Assembly: GCA_027309085.1 (NCBI GenBank)
Contig: DAIDDL010000015.1
Coordinates: 1-64,000 of the forward strand
Direction of reading: 5' to 3'
Source: Sulfobacillus sp.
GTDB taxonomy: Bacteria; Bacillota; Sulfobacillia; Sulfobacillales; Sulfobacillaceae
DNA: 64,000 bases
This document shows, in pieces, positions 1,637-57,071 of this stretch. Positions within the stretch are counted from its first letter, which is position 1, and each line of letters opens with the position of its first letter. The position numbers and the translations under genes are program-made. The notes beneath the pieces were generated by a model, which was not told where the DNA came from, searched no databases, and saw only the letters and a list, made by a program, of their open reading frames with translations.

Positions 1637-2494
1637 TTAAAGATCCGTCCCCATCTTGCGCGCTTCCGGGACCAGTTGCCGCCACCTCTCGTCGCTGGTG
1701 ATATTCGGCTCATTGAGCATCAGGAGTTGGTCCACGCTGACGGGGAACCCAGGCACATTCTGTCCAAGCCGTGCTGCCAGCATCAGGGCACCGAGGGGAA
1801 TGTGCGCTAAAGATAGATTGTCACGCCCCACCGCCAGTCCCACACGGCGGTACAGCGCATTCAGGCTATAGCGGTCGGGCCCCCCCACCTCCCATGTCTG
1901 CCCGGCTGCCTGGGATCCCTCGACCAATTGGGCGACAAGCTCCGCCACATCGTCTCTGGCCACTGGCTGGAACAGGGTTTTTCCCGATCCGGGAACGGGC
2001 ACGAGTGGCCACCGGACCTGACTCTCAAGGGTCGCAAAAAAAGGCGACCCTCCCCCAAACAGCAGGGAAGGCCGCAGAATAGTCCACTGTGACGAGGAGG
2101 CCCGAACATACTGCTCAGCCTGCCATTTGGTCAGGTGGTACTGGCTGGCGGCGCCTTCGCGCGTGCCCAGCGCAGACATATGCACAAGCCGCGGCACCCC
2201 GGCCCGTGCGATTGCGTCCACCACGCGTTTCGTTGCCTGGCGGTGAATCTTGTCAAACGTAATCCCCTGTGACGGGTGTTCCTGGATGATGCCAACAAGA
2301 TGCACCACGCCGTCGAATCCCTGGAACAGGCGGGAGAGGTCCGCCGTGCTGATATCCCCGGCCACGCACCCCTCTACCCCCGCCGCTGCTGGGCAGCGCC
2401 GGGCGAGCAGGGTAACGTCGTGATGATGGCGGTGCAAAGCCTGCTCCACTGCCTGCCCGAGATAACCGGTCCCCCCTGTAATCAGAATGCGCAT
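1637..2494 (-). CDS. NAD(P)-binding Rossmann-fold reductase (atypical SDR, NDUFA9-like)
   Basis: This 285-residue protein has a TGGTGYLG dinucleotide-binding motif at its N-terminus. The phrase GVVHLVGIIQ and a YHLTK (YxxxK) pair further on are typical of extended short-chain dehydrogenases of the NDUFA9/epimerase-like group. The substrate cannot be told from sequence. The start at 2494 is chosen because AGGAGG lies seven bases upstream, whereas an in-frame ATG further upstream lacks a good site. It is the last gene after the efflux cluster, about 60 bases from the second HlyD gene, so it may be read on the same transcript. It could act on lipid, quinone or nucleotide-sugar substrates. Confidence 0.75.
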   Translation of the reverse strand: MRILITGGTGYLGQAVEQALHRHHHDVTLLARRCPAAAGVEGCVAGDISTADLSRLFQGFDGVVHLVGIIQEHPSQGITFDKIHRQATKRVVDAIARAGVPRLVHMSALGTREGAASQYHLTKWQAEQYVRASSSQWTILRPSLLFGGGSPFFATLESQVRWPLVPVPGSGKTLFQPVARDDVAELVAQLVEGSQAAGQTWEVGGPDRYSLNALYRRVGLAVGRDNLSLAHIPLGALMLAARLGQNVPGFPVSVDQLLMLNEPNITSDERWRQLVPEARKMGTDL

Positions 2495-2554
2495 AGCCCG
2501 CCTCCTCGCTTTCATCATAGGGTTCTGGCGGCACGGTGGCTAGAGTTTTCCCAG

Positions 2555-3244
2555 TTAATGAATGGTAATTCGCACTTCCGCATCTTCGCCGGGCAGCAGG
2601 GAATAGCCCGCCGCGTCAATGGACAGTTCCACCGGCACCCGCTGCGTGACTTTGGTATAGGTTCCCGACGTGGCCGCGGTGGGAATCAGCGAAAAGAATG
2701 ACTGCGTGGTAGGCTGAATCGCTTCGACGGTGCCGGTAAACGACACCCCGGGGTGCGCATCCACGTAAATCGTCGCGCTCTGCCCAACGGATACGTTCCG
2801 AATTTTTGTTTCCGGAATGTTCGCGACCACATTGACCTTCGAGAGCTGGACCAAGGTGAAGAGGGGCGTGCCCGCGGCCACGGCCTGCCCGTTTGCCACT
2901 GAGACGTTCGCCACGTAGCCGGCGACCGGCGCCGTAATGTTGATGAGGGTCGTGCCCGTAGCCGCTGGGGTCTTGCCGCCCTTGGCGGTGGTGACCGGAG
3001 TGGTCGCCACCGTTTCCTGGGCAATCGTCTGGCCCTGGCTGACCCGCTGGCCGGTGGTCACCGACAGGTCTTGCACCGTTCCGCTGCTTTGCGCGGCAAT
3101 AGGAATGGTGGGAGCCGAAATCGCCGCGTCCTGCGTCGACACGTAGTCGTAGCTCTGGCTCCAGTAATAGGCGACAATCCCCCCTATCAATATTAAAGCC
3201 ACAATGATCAACACGTTAATGAGAATGACTCGACTTTGCTTCAC
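2555..3244 (-). CDS. HlyD/EmrA-type membrane fusion protein (second adaptor)
   Basis: This 229-residue adaptor of an MFS drug-efflux system has one N-terminal membrane helix (ILINVLIIVALILIGGIVAY). Two half-lipoyl segments follow (PIAAQSSGTVQDLSVTTGQR and ITAPVAGYVANVSVANGQAV), then a beta-barrel domain ending in PGEDAEVRITIH. It lacks the long coiled-coil hairpin of Gram-negative EmrA, as expected for a cell without an outer membrane. It follows the MFS gene and has a paralogue on that gene's other side, so two different adaptors flank one pump. A low-complexity Thr/Ala insert around residues 80-95 separates the lipoyl half from the next strand. Its role in transport is inferred from the family. 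Confidence 0.85.
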   Translation of the reverse strand: MKQSRVILINVLIIVALILIGGIVAYYWSQSYDYVSTQDAAISAPTIPIAAQSSGTVQDLSVTTGQRVSQGQTIAQETVATTPVTTAKGGKTPAATGTTLINITAPVAGYVANVSVANGQAVAAGTPLFTLVQLSKVNVVANIPETKIRNVSVGQSATIYVDAHPGVSFTGTVEAIQPTTQSFFSLIPTAATSGTYTKVTQRVPVELSIDAAGYSLLPGEDAEVRITIH

Positions 3245-3317
3245 GGATTAATCTCTCCTCACATATGCCCCCAGGGGGATAAAGTTTACGGCACGGAACA
3301 CCGCGGCCGAGTCCGGC

Positions 3318-4874
3318 CTAATCAGCCATCATCTGAGGCGCGCCTTTCTTGTGGTGATAGGTTTTGAGGAACAGACCGAGAAACGCCCCAAATAAGGTGA
3401 TCGCCGCTCCCAGCACAAAGACGTCGTCAATCCCCATCACGAACGCCTGCTGTTGGATCAGGCCATACAGGGTCGTCGTCGTCACGGAGAGGGACTGGCC
3501 CGCCGCTAATCCCTGGTGGGCAAAATACCCGGTCATCTGCTGGACAAACTGCACGGACGGCCGCGCGGTGGGGGTATACGACGCGGCAATATTGGCCGCA
3601 TGCAACGTGGACTGCGATTCCAGCACCGCGGTCATGAACGCCAAGCCAAAAGACCCCGCCACCCGCTGCATCACGTTGTTGATCGCGGACCCCGATCCCA
3701 CCATTTCCGTGGGGAGAGAAGACATGCCGGCCGTGGTGGCCGGCATCATCGCCATGCCCATCCCAAAGCCGCGCAGAGTCAACCAGAACACCACGTCGCC
3801 GACGGGAGTGGTGGTGGTAAGACGGTGCAGCAGAAATGTCGTGTAGGCCAGTATCACGAGGCCCACCACCACCACGGGACGCGCGCCGATCTTGTCGTAC
3901 AGCCGGCCCGAGATGGGCATCATAATCGCCGACGCCAAGGCGGCCGGCATCATCATCAGCCCCGTCTGCAAAGCCCCGTAACCCACGACCGTTTGCAGGA
4001 AGAGCGGCACATAAAACAGTCCGGAATACATGGACACCGTAATCACGACGACCAAAAGGTTCGCCATGGTAAACGACCCCCGGCTAAAGACCCGTAAATC
4101 CAGCAGCGGGTGAGGAATACTGAGCTCCCACAGACTGAACAGGGTCAGCAGCAGCACCGACCCCACCAAGAGCAGCACGATGGGCTCGGATCCCCATCCC
4201 CAGGTCTGCCCCTCGGAGAGTGCGAGCAGCAGCCCGAACAATCCCGCCGCCGAAAGCAAAAACCCCATGAAGTCGAAAGAGCCCAGACGGCGGCTCGGAA
4301 ATTTGGGGACATAGCCGAGGGCCAGCAAAACGCCGACGATTCCAATCGGCACGTTGATGTAAAAGATGAGCCGCCAGTTCACATACTCGACCAGCCAGCC
4401 CCCAAGGGTCGGGCCAATGGCTGGCGCCACAATAATCCCGAGTCCCCAGAATCCCATGGCGGTTCCTATCCGGTCCCGCGGGACAATCCGGTACACCATG
4501 GCCATGGTAATCGGCATGATCAGCCCACCACCCAGAGCCTGTAACACACGGAAAATTGTCAGCACCTCTAGACTCCACGACAGCCCTGACAGCGCCGACC
4601 CTATCGTGAAGACGGTCAGCGACACCACGTAGATCCGCCGGTAGCCGAACCGCTCACCCAGATAGCCCGCCAGAGGCACGACGACCCCCAGGGTCAGCAT
4701 GTAGATCGTGACCACCCACTGCACTTCGGCGGTATCGACTGAAAAGACGCTCTCCAATTTGGGAATGGCAATGTTGACAATGGACGTGTCCAAAATCGCC
4801 ATGAATCCTCCCAGAATCAACACGGACAGGGCGACTCCCCAGTGCCGGGATGTTGTTGGTTGTTCTGTCGCCAT
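3318..4874 (-). CDS. DHA2 family MFS multidrug efflux transporter (EmrB/QacA type)
   Basis: This 518-residue proton-driven exporter has the 14-helix layout of the EmrB/QacA subfamily. Motif D1 appears as LDTSIVNIAIPKL in helix 1, and motif A as GYLGERFGYRR in the loop after helix 2. An antiporter-type motif C, GPTLGGWLVEYVNWR, follows helix 5. The start at 4874 is picked because AGGAGGAACAAG precedes it; the in-frame codon 15 bases upstream would destroy that site. It sits between two HlyD adaptors in a cluster headed by a MarR repressor gene. The probable substrates are hydrophobic toxic compounds or uncouplers, as for EmrB, but nothing in the sequence identifies them. Confidence 0.92.
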   Translation of the reverse strand: MATEQPTTSRHWGVALSVLILGGFMAILDTSIVNIAIPKLESVFSVDTAEVQWVVTIYMLTLGVVVPLAGYLGERFGYRRIYVVSLTVFTIGSALSGLSWSLEVLTIFRVLQALGGGLIMPITMAMVYRIVPRDRIGTAMGFWGLGIIVAPAIGPTLGGWLVEYVNWRLIFYINVPIGIVGVLLALGYVPKFPSRRLGSFDFMGFLLSAAGLFGLLLALSEGQTWGWGSEPIVLLLVGSVLLLTLFSLWELSIPHPLLDLRVFSRGSFTMANLLVVVITVSMYSGLFYVPLFLQTVVGYGALQTGLMMMPAALASAIMMPISGRLYDKIGARPVVVVGLVILAYTTFLLHRLTTTTPVGDVVFWLTLRGFGMGMAMMPATTAGMSSLPTEMVGSGSAINNVMQRVAGSFGLAFMTAVLESQSTLHAANIAASYTPTARPSVQFVQQMTGYFAHQGLAAGQSLSVTTTTLYGLIQQQAFVMGIDDVFVLGAAITLFGAFLGLFLKTYHHKKGAPQMMAD

Positions 4875-4898
4875 CTTGTTCCTCCTCATTCCCGCAAA

Positions 4899-5519
4899 CT
4901 AGACGTCAATCCGCACCGCGGCATTTTCCCCCGGAATAAATGTGTTCGAACCGGTGTCGACCTGCACCGTGACCGGTACCCACTGGCGTTTTTTGGCGAA
5001 GGTCCCCACCTGCAGCAAGGGCGACAGGACGCTCAAGGTCACCGACCCGATATGGGATACCGTGCCCGTAAAGGTCGTCCCGGGATACGCGCTCAGGGTC
5101 ACGCTCACGGTCTGTCCCCGCGCAATGCGGTGCGCCTGGGATTCGGGAAAATCAGCCACCACCGTGGACCGACCCGCTTGCACCAGCGCCATCAAATCTT
5201 CTTTCGGCTGGATGCTGGCACCGGGCGCCACGCCAATGGAGCCCACTGTCCCGCTGGTCGGCGCCATAATGGTTTTCTGCTGGCCCTGCCAGGTCTTCAC
5301 GCGCATCAGGGCGGCCCCCGCCTTGACGCGGTCGCCGGTGTGCACCATCAGACCCGTCACCGTCGCTGGCGACGAGATGCTGACCCAGTCGTAGGGGGCC
5401 GTGACGTAGGCGTACGCCGTATTGACGTAGTTGGCCTGGTAGTAGGCGTCATAACCCGCAATTCCCCCCATAATCAGGACGCCAATCAACGCGACCACCC
5501 CTAATATCCATCGGGGCAT
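4899..5519 (-). CDS. HlyD-type membrane fusion protein (first adaptor)
   Basis: This 206-residue adaptor has one N-terminal membrane helix (ILGVVALIGVLIMGGIAGY). Lipoyl half-motifs follow around residues 45-105 (SISSPATVTGLMVHTGDRVK and IMAPTSGTVGSIGVAPGASI), then a beta-barrel with PGENAAVRIDV at the end. It is shorter than the second adaptor and shares only the general fold and the C-terminal PGE(N/D)A sequence. Its ATG lies immediately after the stop of the unknown membrane protein gene and its stop is 24 bases before the pump gene, so the three are probably translated as one unit. No coiled-coil hairpin is present. Confidence 0.85.
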   Translation of the reverse strand: MPRWILGVVALIGVLIMGGIAGYDAYYQANYVNTAYAYVTAPYDWVSISSPATVTGLMVHTGDRVKAGAALMRVKTWQGQQKTIMAPTSGTVGSIGVAPGASIQPKEDLMALVQAGRSTVVADFPESQAHRIARGQTVSVTLSAYPGTTFTGTVSHIGSVTLSVLSPLLQVGTFAKKRQWVPVTVQVDTGSNTFIPGENAAVRIDV

Positions 5520-6326
5520 TCACTCACCTTCTTCTCTTTCCGATTCCACCAGACTCTGGTAGCCCATGCGGAGGATTTCTATTTCTTCCAGCCGTTCTTC
5601 GGCCGCCGTAATCCGCTCCAAGCGAATGCGGATGTCAATCGTCTGCCGGTAGGCATCATCTTCTGGCGCCTTAGGCGGAACGCCCCGGCTGATTTCCTGC
5701 CACAGCATGTCGGATTCGGCGGTCAAATCCGCCAACCTTTCATGGATGTCCGTCTCCGTCAGCACGCGGCGGTAACGCTCCACATGGAAAGCCGGTTCCG
5801 CCCCATTGGCCCAAGCTTCATAGCCCTGGGACAAGATGAATAGTTCCAGCAGGCGTCGCAGCTGCCGGGGCCTCTCGTCCACGGTGCCTGCGTCCTCACT
5901 GCCCTGCAGCACCAATTCAGCCATTTCCGCTGCCCGGGACTGAATCTCCTTGGCTTTATACCGCCAGCGTGCCCGTGATACCTCTTCCCTGAGCACGTCA
6001 ATCCGCTGCGGGAGGTGATGGGGCACGGGCATCAGCCCGGTATTTTCCCGCGGACGGTATTCCGGCAAGGATCGCTGCGGGACCCTTTCCCCATCCGCCT
6101 CCGGTTCCTCCTCAGGGGCTTCCGCAACATCATCCCGCTGGGCAGCCGTTTCAGGTTTCGATCGTCCCAAACGGCCAAATGACAGGGTCAGCACTCCCGT
6201 CACCACGCCCACCCCGATTAGTCCAAATCCCCAGACGGCACTGAGAGAGGGTTCCGCCACCAGGAGAAATATCCCCAGGATAATAGCCACCAACGACTCG
6301 ACGATTCCAGAAATCAAAAGACCCAT
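5520..6326 (-). CDS. unknown membrane-anchored helical protein of the efflux cluster
   Basis: I do not recognise a family for this 268-residue protein. The first 50 residues form two membrane helices (LLISGIVESLVAIILGIFLL and VWGFGLIGVGVVTGVLTL). After them come a basic stretch, an acidic linker (DDVAEAPEEEPEADGERV), and about 170 residues rich in Arg, Glu and Leu that look like cytoplasmic helices, possibly coiled coil. The ATG at 6326 is chosen because the membrane helix begins right after it; a GGGAG site lies 10 bases upstream. The gene sits between the MarR gene and the first HlyD gene, touching the latter, so it is very likely part of the efflux unit. It could be a regulator or accessory subunit of the pump. 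Confidence 0.7.
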   Translation of the reverse strand: MGLLISGIVESLVAIILGIFLLVAEPSLSAVWGFGLIGVGVVTGVLTLSFGRLGRSKPETAAQRDDVAEAPEEEPEADGERVPQRSLPEYRPRENTGLMPVPHHLPQRIDVLREEVSRARWRYKAKEIQSRAAEMAELVLQGSEDAGTVDERPRQLRRLLELFILSQGYEAWANGAEPAFHVERYRRVLTETDIHERLADLTAESDMLWQEISRGVPPKAPEDDAYRQTIDIRIRLERITAAEERLEEIEILRMGYQSLVESEREEGE

Positions 6327-6386
6327 ACGACGTTGTCTCCCTGCATTGCAATAATTGCCGCCAGCCAAAGGGTGTCGCGCTGCCCT

Positions 6387-6830
6387 TTATGGCTGGGGCC
6401 TGCCCTCTGCCTGGCCTGCGGTTTCCTCCATGCGCTCAATCAAGGACAGCAATGTCTTCAAATCCTCCTCGGACATATTCATGAACAGATGCCGCAAGAA
6501 ATCTTTGCGCTGGGTATAATGGCTCTCAATTTGACGCCATCCCGTCTCGGTCAAACTCACCGTGACGACCCGGCGGTCCGACTCTGACCGCGTGCGCATG
6601 ATGAGGTCAGCGTGAACCAGACGGTCAATCATGCCGCTGGCCCCCGCTAACGAGACGCCCAGCTGTTCCGCAATCTCGCCCACGGCCATGGAGTGGTGGT
6701 CGAACACCAGCTTCAGCAAAGAATACTGTCCCAGCGTCAGCGTGTCTTCTGCCACAGCATGACGCAACCGGCGGCCGATTCGAGAAAAGATCCGGTCCAA
6801 ATTCTCGATGTATTGATCTCGGTCGGCCAA
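6387..6830 (-). CDS. MarR-family transcriptional regulator
   Basis: This 147-residue winged-helix repressor has the recognition region VGEIAEQLGVSLAGASGMID and the wing RTRSESDRRVVTVSLTETGW, both typical of MarR proteins. The terminal helices for dimerisation are present. The likely start is TTG at 6830, because an AGAAGG site lies eight bases before it; a GTG nine bases further upstream would overlap that site. It is the first gene of the efflux cluster, 60 bases before the next gene. MarR proteins usually repress their own operon and release DNA on binding phenolic or hydrophobic ligands. Dyads just upstream of the gene are candidate operators. Confidence 0.9.
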   Translation of the reverse strand: MADRDQYIENLDRIFSRIGRRLRHAVAEDTLTLGQYSLLKLVFDHHSMAVGEIAEQLGVSLAGASGMIDRLVHADLIMRTRSESDRRVVTVSLTETGWRQIESHYTQRKDFLRHLFMNMSEEDLKTLLSLIERMEETAGQAEGRPQP

Positions 6831-6856
6831 ACACTTCACCTTCTTGATTATTCGTG

Positions 6857-6892
6857 TTGTTAACTATCAACAAGACGTAATCTTAGTACTAA
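6857..6892. promoter_or_regulatory. candidate MarR operator region
   Basis: The AT-rich stretch upstream of the MarR gene contains TTGTTAACTATCAACAA (6857-6873) with TTGTT/AACAA arms. A perfect 10-base palindrome TTAGTACTAA follows at 6883-6892. MarR repressors bind dyads of this size between promoter and start codon. The link to this MarR protein is inferred from position only. Confidence 0.5.
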
Positions 6893-6906
6893 CAATCTTA
6901 GGTGTC

Positions 6907-6960
6907 AAGTCTCAGAGACACCAAAAGCCCTAGGGGCGGCTTTTGGTGTCTTTGAGACTT
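6907..6960 (-). terminator. 23-bp hairpin after proline dehydrogenase
   Basis: Arms of 23 bases (6907-6929 and 6938-6960) pair completely apart from one G-T wobble around an eight-base loop. The hairpin begins at the stop codon of the proline dehydrogenase gene on the minus strand, so it probably ends that transcript before the MarR promoter. There is no T tract. The stem is unusually long for a simple terminator. Confidence 0.65.
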
Positions 6961-7870
6961 AACGCTTGGCCAGCGAGCGGGCAAAGAACAGCAGATTTGC
7001 CGGACGTTCTGCAATTCGGCGCAGATAATACGCATACCAGTCCCGTCCCCACGGCACATAGACCCTGGCGGCAAAGCCCCGTCGCGCCAGGTCTTCCAAC
7101 ACCGATAGCTTTACCCCATATAGCATTTGAAATTCCACTTGCGACTGCGGAATATGTTGGGATTCCAGGAAGCGCACAACCTTGCCGAGCACCACTTCAT
7201 CGTGGCTCGCCACGGCGGTAAAATTGCCATGCTGCAAACTGGCCTGCACCAGAGCCACGTAGTTGTCATCCACATCGGGCTTGGATGGATAGGCGAGGCT
7301 GGCCGGTTCTTGATAGGCGCCTTTGACAATTCGGAAATTCTTTGGAGGCTGGGAGAGGCTATTCAAGTCCTCCATAGTTCGGTATAAGTAAGCCTGGAGC
7401 ACTACGCCGACATTTTCTGGATATTTATCCCAAACTTTTTGAAACATGTTCAGGGTCGCGGTGGTAAAATGCGAGTCTTCCATGTCGATGCGCACAAAAT
7501 TTCCGTACTGATGTGCCCGGTCTAAAATTTCCAGCAAGTTTCCGAGGCAGGCCTCTTCCGAAATTCCCAGCCCCATCATCGTGAGTTTGAGAGACACGTG
7601 GGAGCGAACCTGTTCCTTGGCGATGGCATCCAGCATCGCCAAGTAGCTGTCCCGCGCCGCCTGGGCCTCTTCAATGCGGGTGACGGACTCTCCTAGATGA
7701 TCCAATGTCGCGGCGATGCCCCGCTCATTGAGTTCTTTCACCGCCGCTATCGCTTGAGAGAGGGTAGAGCCCGCTACAAACCGCGCGGCTCCCATCTGCA
7801 TGCCGTATTGCTGTACGGTGCGAGACACCAAACTGTTATTCCCGACCCCCAATATGATCTGCTTAAACAC
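6959..7870 (-). CDS. proline dehydrogenase (monofunctional PRODH)
   Basis: This 303-residue FAD enzyme oxidises L-proline to pyrroline-5-carboxylate and passes electrons to quinones at the membrane. Supporting segments are VSLKLTMMGLGI, VRIDMEDSHFTTATL, GVVLQAYLYRTMEDL and FRIVKGAYQEPASLAY. The C-terminal YYLRRIAERPANLLFF matches the substrate-binding end of monofunctional PRODH enzymes (YxxRRxxERP). Start is a GTG at 7870 behind GGAAGG/GGTGGAG. The partner P5C dehydrogenase gene is not in the window. It sits where rplM-rpsI are often found after truA, so it marks the end of the conserved ribosomal block. A 125-base gap separates it from truA. Confidence 0.93.
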   Translation of the reverse strand: MFKQIILGVGNNSLVSRTVQQYGMQMGAARFVAGSTLSQAIAAVKELNERGIAATLDHLGESVTRIEEAQAARDSYLAMLDAIAKEQVRSHVSLKLTMMGLGISEEACLGNLLEILDRAHQYGNFVRIDMEDSHFTTATLNMFQKVWDKYPENVGVVLQAYLYRTMEDLNSLSQPPKNFRIVKGAYQEPASLAYPSKPDVDDNYVALVQASLQHGNFTAVASHDEVVLGKVVRFLESQHIPQSQVEFQMLYGVKLSVLEDLARRGFAARVYVPWGRDWYAYYLRRIAERPANLLFFARSLAKR

Positions 7871-7995: not shown

Positions 7996-8739
7996 TCAGG
8001 GCCTGTCGTATTCAATGTGCTCCAGTGTCAGGCCCCGGGGGGGCGCCAGCACCCCCACCTTCTTCTCCCGGGGATTCTCCAGTGCCCGCCTCACCGGGTC
8101 CAGGTTCTGGGTCTCGGCTGCGAGCAGCATCGCTGCCACGGCAATGCGCACCATGTGATAAAGAAATCCTGTTGCTCCCACGTCATACCGCCAGACCGCG
8201 CCTTGGTCGACCATGGACCAGCGGCTCACCAGAATGCGGCGTTCTGTGGTCTTGGCGGTGGATCCTTCGGCCCGGAATGCCCAAAAGTCGTGGGCACCGA
8301 GCAGGAGTTGGGCGGCCGCGTTGAGATGCGTCCAGGACAAAGGTTGGCGAACGGTATAAGCATACCTCGCCAGTCCCGGCCACAAGGGCTCAGGGCCCCT
8401 CGCCACCGTGTAGCTGTAGTACTTGGCACGCGCCGCGCGGACTGGGTGAAAGCTGTCAGCCACCCACTCCGCCCCGCCCACCCGGATGTCTCGCGGCAGC
8501 CGGCGGTTTAACACCGCCGCCACCCGGTCCAGCGGCACAGGCACCGGCCCAGACCACGTCACCACCTGCCCCCGGGCATGGACCCCGGAGTCCGTCCGGC
8601 TGCCGCCTACGATTGCGCCAGAACCCAAAAGACCTTGAAATGATTCTTCCAGTACGCCTTGTATCGTGCGCTGTCCCGGCTGCCTTTGGAATCCGGAAAA
8701 ATCAGTACCGTCGTAGCTGACAATCATCTTTAACAGCAT
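7996..8739 (-). CDS. truA: tRNA pseudouridine(38-40) synthase TruA
   Basis: This 247-residue enzyme isomerises uridines 38-40 in the anticodon arm of tRNAs. The catalytic aspartate is in GGSRTDSGVHARGQV (about residue 50), and the fold segments VSYDGTDFSGFQRQPGQRTI and FLYHMVRIAVAAML are diagnostic. Its ATG at 8739 lies just after the ecfT stop and uses a ribosome site inside ecfT. The order rplQ-ecfA1-ecfA2-ecfT-truA is the usual Firmicute arrangement, so it is probably expressed at the end of the alpha operon. Confidence 0.97.
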   Translation of the reverse strand: MLLKMIVSYDGTDFSGFQRQPGQRTIQGVLEESFQGLLGSGAIVGGSRTDSGVHARGQVVTWSGPVPVPLDRVAAVLNRRLPRDIRVGGAEWVADSFHPVRAARAKYYSYTVARGPEPLWPGLARYAYTVRQPLSWTHLNAAAQLLLGAHDFWAFRAEGSTAKTTERRILVSRWSMVDQGAVWRYDVGATGFLYHMVRIAVAAMLLAAETQNLDPVRRALENPREKKVGVLAPPRGLTLEHIEYDRP

Positions 8740-38971: not shown

Positions 38972-38990
38972 ACATTCACCCCCCTTAAAC

Positions 38991-39023
38991 AAAAAATACC
39001 TCCACCCAAGAACGGCAGAGGAT
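38991..39023 (-). terminator. candidate attenuator before rplJ
   Basis: On the minus strand an imperfect stem (CCTC..CC paired with GG..GAGG) is followed directly by six T (38991-38996), about 20 bases before the rplJ start. It would stop transcription unless an alternative leader fold wins. Confidence 0.5.
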
Positions 39024-39170
39024 ATGCTCAGCAATAAACATCTCCGAAATTCTACCTAAGCGGGATATTGAGCCGAGGTCGGCACCCACTGTCTTGGGTT
39101 CGGCAATAAAGGTACCACGAAGCCCGTGAAAAATCAACAATTTTTCGCGGGAGGCATTCAGGTCTTCGGT
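39005..39170 (-). ncRNA. candidate ribosomal protein L10 leader
   Basis: Upstream of rplJ the minus strand contains CCGAAGACCTGAATGCCTCC followed by a hairpin with arms CCCGCGAAAAAT and ATTTTTCACGGG (39123-39151). More paired segments follow before the attenuator. The L10 leader family occurs at this position in Firmicutes. Assignment rests on position and general look, not on a covariance match. Confidence 0.5.
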
Positions 39171-53013: not shown

Positions 53014-53089
<76 letters not shown>

Positions 53090-53091
53090 AT

Positions 53092-53168
<77 letters not shown>

Positions 53169-53169
53169 G

Positions 53170-53255
53170 TGGTGGATGGGGTTGGATTCGAACCAACGTA
53201 GGCGTTAGCCAGCGGTTTTACAGACCGCCCCCTTTAGCCTCTCGGGCACCCATCC
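53170..53255 (-). tRNA. tRNA-Tyr (anticodon GTA)
   Basis: This 86-base class II tRNA has a long variable arm, anticodon GTA and encoded CCA. It is the first of the Tyr-fMet-Thr cluster, with one base to fMet. Confidence 0.97.
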
Positions 53256-56995: not shown

Positions 56996-57071
56996 TGGAG
57001 CTGGCGGGAGGACTTGAACCTCTAACCTACTGATTACAAATCAGTTGCTCTGCCAATTGAGCTACGCCAGC
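56996..57071 (-). tRNA. tRNA-Thr (anticodon TGT)
   Basis: This 76-base cloverleaf has acceptor GCTGGCG/CGCCAGC, anticodon loop TTTGTAA and T-loop GGTTCAAGTCC. The CCA end is encoded. It is a single gene with its own promoter and terminator. Confidence 0.97.

Follow-up and report, generated by a model that had tools for sequence, protein, structure and literature searches.

A protein outside known families in a two-adaptor EmrB efflux unit of the Sulfobacillus group: a candidate fourth pump component

Extra components of efflux pumps have published precedents in YknW, MexG and AcrZ, and pumps with two adaptors in TriA/TriB, according to the excerpted sections of a review (PMC4338810). The same excerpts describe YknWXYZ of Bacillus subtilis as a Gram-positive, adaptor-dependent pump of four components with an extra membrane protein in its operon; YknW was reported there to affect adaptor oligomerisation or the contact between adaptor and transporter, and the role of adaptors in cells without an outer membrane was described as an open question. 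A gene unit of related composition was analysed in a stretch of 64,000 nucleotides (contig DAIDDL010000015.1, positions 1 to 64,000; the window) from a genome of the Sulfobacillus group, for which the nearest named relative found was Sulfobacillus thermotolerans Kr1. The unit encodes an EmrB-type transporter, two different short HlyD adaptors and a 268-residue protein, designated UNK, which is 77% identical to that of S. thermotolerans. In the acidophilic Sulfobacillus bacteria and their relatives, UNK and the two-adaptor pump share one gene cluster and are nearly always present or absent together, so that UNK is probably an extra part of the pump. With moderate confidence, and from comparative sequence evidence, UNK was taken to be the fourth component of an EmrAB-type, adaptor-dependent pump of the major facilitator superfamily (MFS) in a single-membrane cell, like YknW of Bacillus.

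The unit comprises five open reading frames (ORFs), all on the minus strand, in the following order:
6387 to 6839, minus strand: MarR-family regulator, first gene of the unit, 150 residues (PF01047, 55.2 bits, cut-off 24.6)
5520 to 6326, minus strand: UNK, 268 residues (the mechanical ORF begins at a TTG at 6368)
4899 to 5519, minus strand: HlyD-a, a short membrane-fusion adaptor, 206 residues (PF16576, 61.2 bits; PF13437, 44.8 bits)
3318 to 4874, minus strand: EmrB-type DHA2 efflux transporter, 518 residues (TIGR00711, 447.5 bits, cut-off 230.2)
2555 to 3244, minus strand: HlyD-b, a short membrane-fusion adaptor, 229 residues (PF16576, 85.8 bits; PF13437, 69.4 bits)

The cut-offs for the two HlyD families were 30 bits (PF16576) and 22.2 bits (PF13437). 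The earlier note on this DNA had read touching gene ends as a sign of one translation unit, which was exact for one junction, where the ATG of HlyD-a abuts the stop codon of UNK with a gap of 0 nucleotides; the remaining gaps were 60, 24 and 73 nucleotides. Judged from their family matches, MarR, EmrB and the two HlyD adaptors are unremarkable representatives of large families.

The transporter and adaptors are most readily compared with EmrAB-TolC of Escherichia coli, in which a DHA2 EmrB works with an EmrA-like adaptor and a MarR-type regulator is also present. EmrA was the best solved relative of both adaptors in the window. However, the window unit has two adaptors and the extra gene UNK, it contains no gene for an outer-membrane channel, and neither adaptor reached the cut-off of TIGR00998 (EmrA/EmrK) at 390.8 bits (HlyD-a 67.9, HlyD-b 143). 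In an alignment with EmrA (8zar), HlyD-b had 25 residues between its lipoyl halves, whereas E. coli EmrA had about 125; therefore, HlyD-b would lack the long alpha-hairpin that meets the outer-membrane channel. HlyD-a also appeared to lack this hairpin, as judged from its length of 206 residues and the positions of its matches alone. The cell presumably has the single membrane of Sulfobacillus, which an adaptor without the hairpin would suit. At the yhbI, yhbJ and yhcA genes of B. subtilis, where yhbJ presumably encodes a short EmrA-like adaptor, no UNK-like gene is known. These genes were reported as benzoate-induced and include those for a regulator of the MarR family and a protein of multidrug resistance, with yhbJ listed as unknown in the excerpt of the source (PMC2788229). 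As far as the review excerpts go (PMC4338810), Gram-positive adaptors generally retain the hairpin, with one example free of the coiled coil, and TriABC-OpmH of Pseudomonas aeruginosa likewise joins one transporter to two different adaptors, which are 36% identical to each other; HlyD-a and HlyD-b are about 32% identical. TriABC-OpmH differs in its resistance-nodulation-division transporter and its two-membrane cell. The transporter of YknWXYZ is of the ATP-binding cassette (ABC) type, whereas here it is an MFS protein, and YknW has four membrane segments and Yip1 homology, whereas UNK has two in its model and no Yip1 match. Two-adaptor pumps (TriA/TriB) and Gram-positive adaptors (YknWXYZ) are already known; the UNK family is the new part.

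UNK was present in 24 of the 42 genomes of the order that were searched, at identities to the window protein down to about 23%. A search with the single sequence had found it in 23 of 61 relatives, and a profile search added one more (G035). In the class (154 genomes), 26 genomes gave matches, namely the same 24 and two with marginal short matches over 56-58 profile positions (G098, E 6.9e-4; G103, E 3.8e-4). A sample of 398 genomes of the phylum gave UNK in three, all of the family of the window and none outside the order, with at most six candidates scored per genome, so that distant members could be missed. The gene is therefore real and extends beyond one strain, and relative to S. thermotolerans the nonsynonymous distance (dN) was 0.154 with synonymous sites saturated.

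The company of UNK was highly uniform. The earlier note had proposed checking whether homologues lie beside HlyD-EmrB genes, and this was found in 22 of the 24 genomes, each with UNK followed by adaptor, EmrB and adaptor; the two exceptions belong to one genus without such a pump. UNK and HlyD-a abutted or overlapped (-11 to +4 nucleotides) in all 19 loci measured of the 22, the other three, with figures taken from coordinates, being G011 (about +86), G038 (about +1) and G041 (start uncertain). MarR lay directly upstream of UNK in 23 of the 24 genomes, and the gap between them ranged from -4 to 240 nucleotides in the same measured loci. In G038, both contigs that carry the unit break off within UNK, and the one bearing its N-terminal part also bears MarR. 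In G041, an insert of about 1.8 kb separates MarR from UNK, which remains with the pump; the insert holds an ABC ATPase-like ORF, identified by reading its sequence, and an ABC-2 permease, a membrane protein of the ABC-2 type (L068 8430-10202). Moreover, six EmrB paralogues that are 62-66% identical to the window EmrB (in G001, G002, G003 and G005) had no HlyD match and no UNK within 9-12.5 kb around them; a seventh (G001:C59, 47% identical) was outside this comparison. Hence, UNK goes with adaptor-bearing pumps of this kind and not with EmrB as such. TetR-family regulators (PF00440) adjoin the adaptor-less paralogues in G005 (L061 6936-7532) and G001 (L062 880-1437).

The genomes without UNK were examined at the corresponding locus, which is bordered by the following genes:
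1637 to 2518, minus strand: NAD(P)-binding gene like short-chain dehydrogenases/reductases (SDR) and NmrA, 3' of HlyD-b (PF13460, 73.2 bits), in the conserved neighbourhood outside the pump block
6959 to 7870: proline dehydrogenase (PRODH; Pfam), precedes the unit
7996 to 8739: tRNA pseudouridine synthase (Pfam), precedes the unit, taken here to be TruA

In 12 of the 18 UNK-less genomes of the order (G012, G014, G016, G020, G021, G022, G025, G027, G029, G031, G032 and G033), MarR and SDR were neighbours, and UNK, HlyD-a, EmrB and HlyD-b were all missing at the locus. PRODH was upstream in 10 of these genomes and was not seen in G016 and G021. No EmrB was found at E<=1e-100 in any of the 12, in five HlyD was matched weakly (27-35% identical) and on a different contig, and no remnant of UNK better than E 2.2 was found in the block-less loci. 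In G031, MarR and SDR are about 2.2 kb apart, and an ABC-2 membrane protein encoded on the opposite strand (L173 4745-5941) occupies the place that the pump block has in other genomes. The remaining six (G010, G013, G015, G019, G023 and G030, the last 63% complete) had no MarR-SDR pair; in G015 and G023, a distant MarR-HlyD-EmrB cluster that lacks UNK was present. Long, weakly HlyD-like proteins (626-639 residues) lie beside that cluster in G023 (L140 829-2748 and 2926-4806) and G015 (L139 3582-5492). A midpoint-rooted tree of flanking genes was built for the 33 of 42 genomes that had at least two of the four genes; a questionable SDR row (G039) was left out, as were MarR rows from five genomes in which this gene was unrelated. 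The 12 genomes fell into two groups, one of 10 genomes (support 0.896) and one of G016 and G021 with G010 (support 1.0). Joint gain or loss of UNK and the pump has therefore occurred about twice, the breakpoint falling between MarR and UNK.

Distances between UNK and the other proteins were correlated over the 13 genomes that had all eight genes, and the background was removed by regression on TruA and PRODH. The unadjusted correlations of UNK were 0.975 with EmrB, 0.927 with HlyD-a, 0.894 with HlyD-b, 0.753 with SDR and 0.725 with MarR; after adjustment they were 0.944, 0.833, 0.698, 0.187 and -0.096, respectively. The correlation with EmrB and HlyD-a held in all five sets tried. The distances of UNK were large (mean 2.4), and saturation is therefore a concern.

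Six columns of UNK were invariant in the 21 full sequences from pump-bearing genomes, namely G7, E10, L165, G168, L208 and E247. The codon involved in the first membrane helix is the following:
6297 to 6299, minus strand: Glu10 codon of UNK, within the first membrane helix (position reckoned from the start codon at 6326)

Position 10 was Glu in all 21 pump-bearing genomes compared and also in the N-terminal fragment of G038, and Leu in both pump-less genomes (G036 and G037), where three of the six columns were changed (E10L, L208A and E247V), both glutamates included. R118, W121, R197, R235, G255 and Y256 were retained in this pair. In a control that left out one clade at a time, the changed columns were 1/7, 1/7, 0/6, 3/9, 1/7, 1/7, 5/11 and 3/9, and E10 and E247 were never among them. 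Seven positions of EmrB separated the 22 UNK-linked from the 11 unlinked copies, none of them charged, and they offered no partner for Glu10; inspection of the HlyD membrane helices by eye gave no clear partner either.

The earlier note had described two membrane helices and a helical tail in a protein that fits no family, and both statements agreed with the present results. No Pfam family was found above cut-off for the window protein and 22 homologues, and neither an NCBIfam family above cut-off nor a PHROG for the window protein. Its sole Pfam match at E<=1 was DUF1192 (PF06698) at 19.2 bits, below the cut-off of 25.5, and 3 of 22 members matched DUF1192 at E<=0.1; membership was rejected on the score. 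None of 22 UNK proteins matched Yip1 at E<=0.1, and plasmid and phage collections gave no tblastn match at E<=0.01. A profile search of PDB sequences gave five matches at E<=1, the best at 0.049 (organic solute transporter beta), which were taken as chance. The AlphaFold2 model had a predicted local distance difference test score of 75.5 and a predicted template modelling score of 0.56 for the whole protein, and 86.8 and 0.81 for the tail alone. It placed membrane helices at about residues 2-24 and 30-53, a low-confidence linker at 54-98 and a helical tail at about 105-267. The hydrophobicity scan gave two segments in 9 of the 10 homologous ORFs listed and none in that of G034. Over 23 sequences, Lys and Arg numbered 4 in the interhelical loop and 57 in the stretch that follows helix 2; therefore, both ends should be cytoplasmic, and UNK is predicted to form a membrane helical hairpin with this orientation. 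Foldseek against PDB gave no match at E<=0.001 for the whole model or the tail, and a library of viral structures gave none to the tail. The best VIA-align scores were at the level of common helical arrangements and were set aside (whole model, Z 7.4 over 81 residues at a root-mean-square deviation (rmsd) of 3.9; tail, Z 9.2 over 75 residues at rmsd 1.8). The membrane hairpin weakly resembled GldL (Z 6.2, 50 residues, rmsd 1.5), which suggested a proton motor; this idea was unsupported and was dropped. No paper on UNK was found; as the protein is unnamed, the literature could be searched only around it.

Several observations weigh against UNK as a part of this pump. The joint presence and absence rest on few independent events. 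The contrast of EmrB and HlyD-a with MarR depends on G008 and G011; without them (11 genomes), the adjusted correlations were 0.795 for EmrB, 0.761 for HlyD-a, 0.077 for HlyD-b, 0.098 for SDR and 0.572 for MarR, and the unadjusted values for MarR (0.959) and TruA (0.952) were near that for EmrB (0.980). In G011, about 86 nucleotides separate UNK from the first adaptor, which resembles HlyD-b more than HlyD-a. Adaptor-EmrB loci without UNK occur in two genomes of the same family (G015, G023) and in three of the class (G047, G048, G057). The change of three of six columns in the pump-less pair is only suggestive, as it concerns one lineage and the controls ranged from 0/6 to 5/11. Furthermore, G036 and G037 (97% and 95% complete) keep MarR-UNK-SDR without pump genes; no HlyD-b relative was found in them at E<=1e-5, and their MFS proteins were only distant (best 37% identical). 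UNK is under purifying selection there (dN 0.155, synonymous distance 1.01, ratio about 0.15), so that it does not look like a decaying relic. By these values, UNK can apparently do something without this pump, which would mean either a second role or another partner.

This selection in the pump-less pair, together with the absence of any family or fold match that ties UNK to transport, is what an envelope or stress protein with a separate function, co-regulated with the pump and no more, would show. Such a protein is nevertheless unlikely, as UNK is absent together with the pump block in 12 genomes and abuts HlyD-a, and its correlation with EmrB and HlyD-a persisted in all subsets tried. A role of UNK as a chaperone of HlyD-a or as a transient factor in its assembly, outside the stable complex, was judged quite improbable; the near-zero spacing, the adjusted correlation with HlyD-a and the absence of UNK beside the six adaptor-less paralogues agree with it, but UNK correlates with EmrB to a similar or greater degree, and other adaptor-EmrB loci do without UNK.

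The earlier note had offered a new subunit or a sensor as alternatives. A subunit fits the joint absence in 12 genomes, the arrangement in G041 and the distance correlations, whereas a sensor acting as the partner of MarR fits less well. Such a membrane-bound sensor or tether would sense a drug or the membrane state and hold or release the regulator, in line with the position of MarR directly upstream and with the pump-less pair, which retains MarR with UNK. However, MarR is retained without UNK in 12 genomes, the gap between the two genes is variable, and the adjusted correlation was negative in 13 genomes, though 0.57 in 11. In G041, other genes separate MarR from UNK, which speaks further against this role, and it was rated the least probable of all. 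A fourth component of the pump was preferred over these explanations.

As a pump component, UNK would belong to an EmrAB-type MFS efflux complex for a one-membrane cell, with two different short HlyD adaptors. Its membrane hairpin, with the buried Glu10, may pack against EmrB, the single membrane helix of HlyD-a or both, and the flexible linker would carry the helical tail domain, which may hold or modulate the cytoplasmic face of the pump. In this way, UNK may promote the assembly of adaptor and pump or tune its activity, as reported for YknW in YknWXYZ of Bacillus. A more specific proposal is tentative and rather doubtful: UNK might be the first representative of a novel family of subunits for MFS efflux complexes in bacteria with one membrane. 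In such a two-helix membrane protein, an essential buried glutamate would contact the pump or an adaptor helix, and the cytoplasmic helical domain would gate the four-protein complex or serve in its assembly, which would make this complex an MFS equivalent of YknWXYZ.

The control region of the unit contains the following elements:
6880 to 6908, minus strand: promoter-like TTGACA-17-TAAGAT of the unit, 5' of the MarR gene (promoter scan)
6878 to 6895, minus strand: TTGTTAGTACTAAGATTA, containing the palindrome TTAGTACTAA and overlapping the -10, a candidate MarR operator

Two promoter-like sites were found in the region vs 1.8 expected by chance, a count that alone is not beyond chance, and both hexamer regions were conserved in all eight genomes of the genus. 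The palindrome was exact in six of the eight and differed by one base in G007 and by two bases in G006. With up to three mismatches allowed, the genome contained a single copy of the 18-base element and two of its reversed control. These values are consistent with a local MarR operator, and MarR would most likely repress the unit via this candidate site over its promoter. Between the stop codon of PRODH and the -35 hexamer of the unit lies a very stable hairpin at 6905-6962 (24 base pairs, -39.4 kcal/mol, z -9.9 vs shuffles), which is absent from the terminator-scan list; the corresponding place in S. thermotolerans holds another hairpin, which is short, GC-paired and accompanied by a run of T.

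Elsewhere in the window, a small protein with a CPDC...H...H motif is encoded on the plus strand at 1111-1611. It had no Pfam family at E<=0.001 and was conserved near SDR in many of the order genomes examined, including those without the pump block. A ribosomal protein L10 leader was found at 38983-39116 (47.2 bits, gathering 44), along with three consecutive tRNA genes at 53017-53255 and a fourth at 56999-57071.

A single order thus offers natural comparisons among the full unit, loci without the block, EmrB without adaptors or UNK, and UNK without the pump. The role of the extra component and of the two adaptors becomes testable through these comparisons, with Glu10, Glu247 and Leu208 as the residues to mutate.

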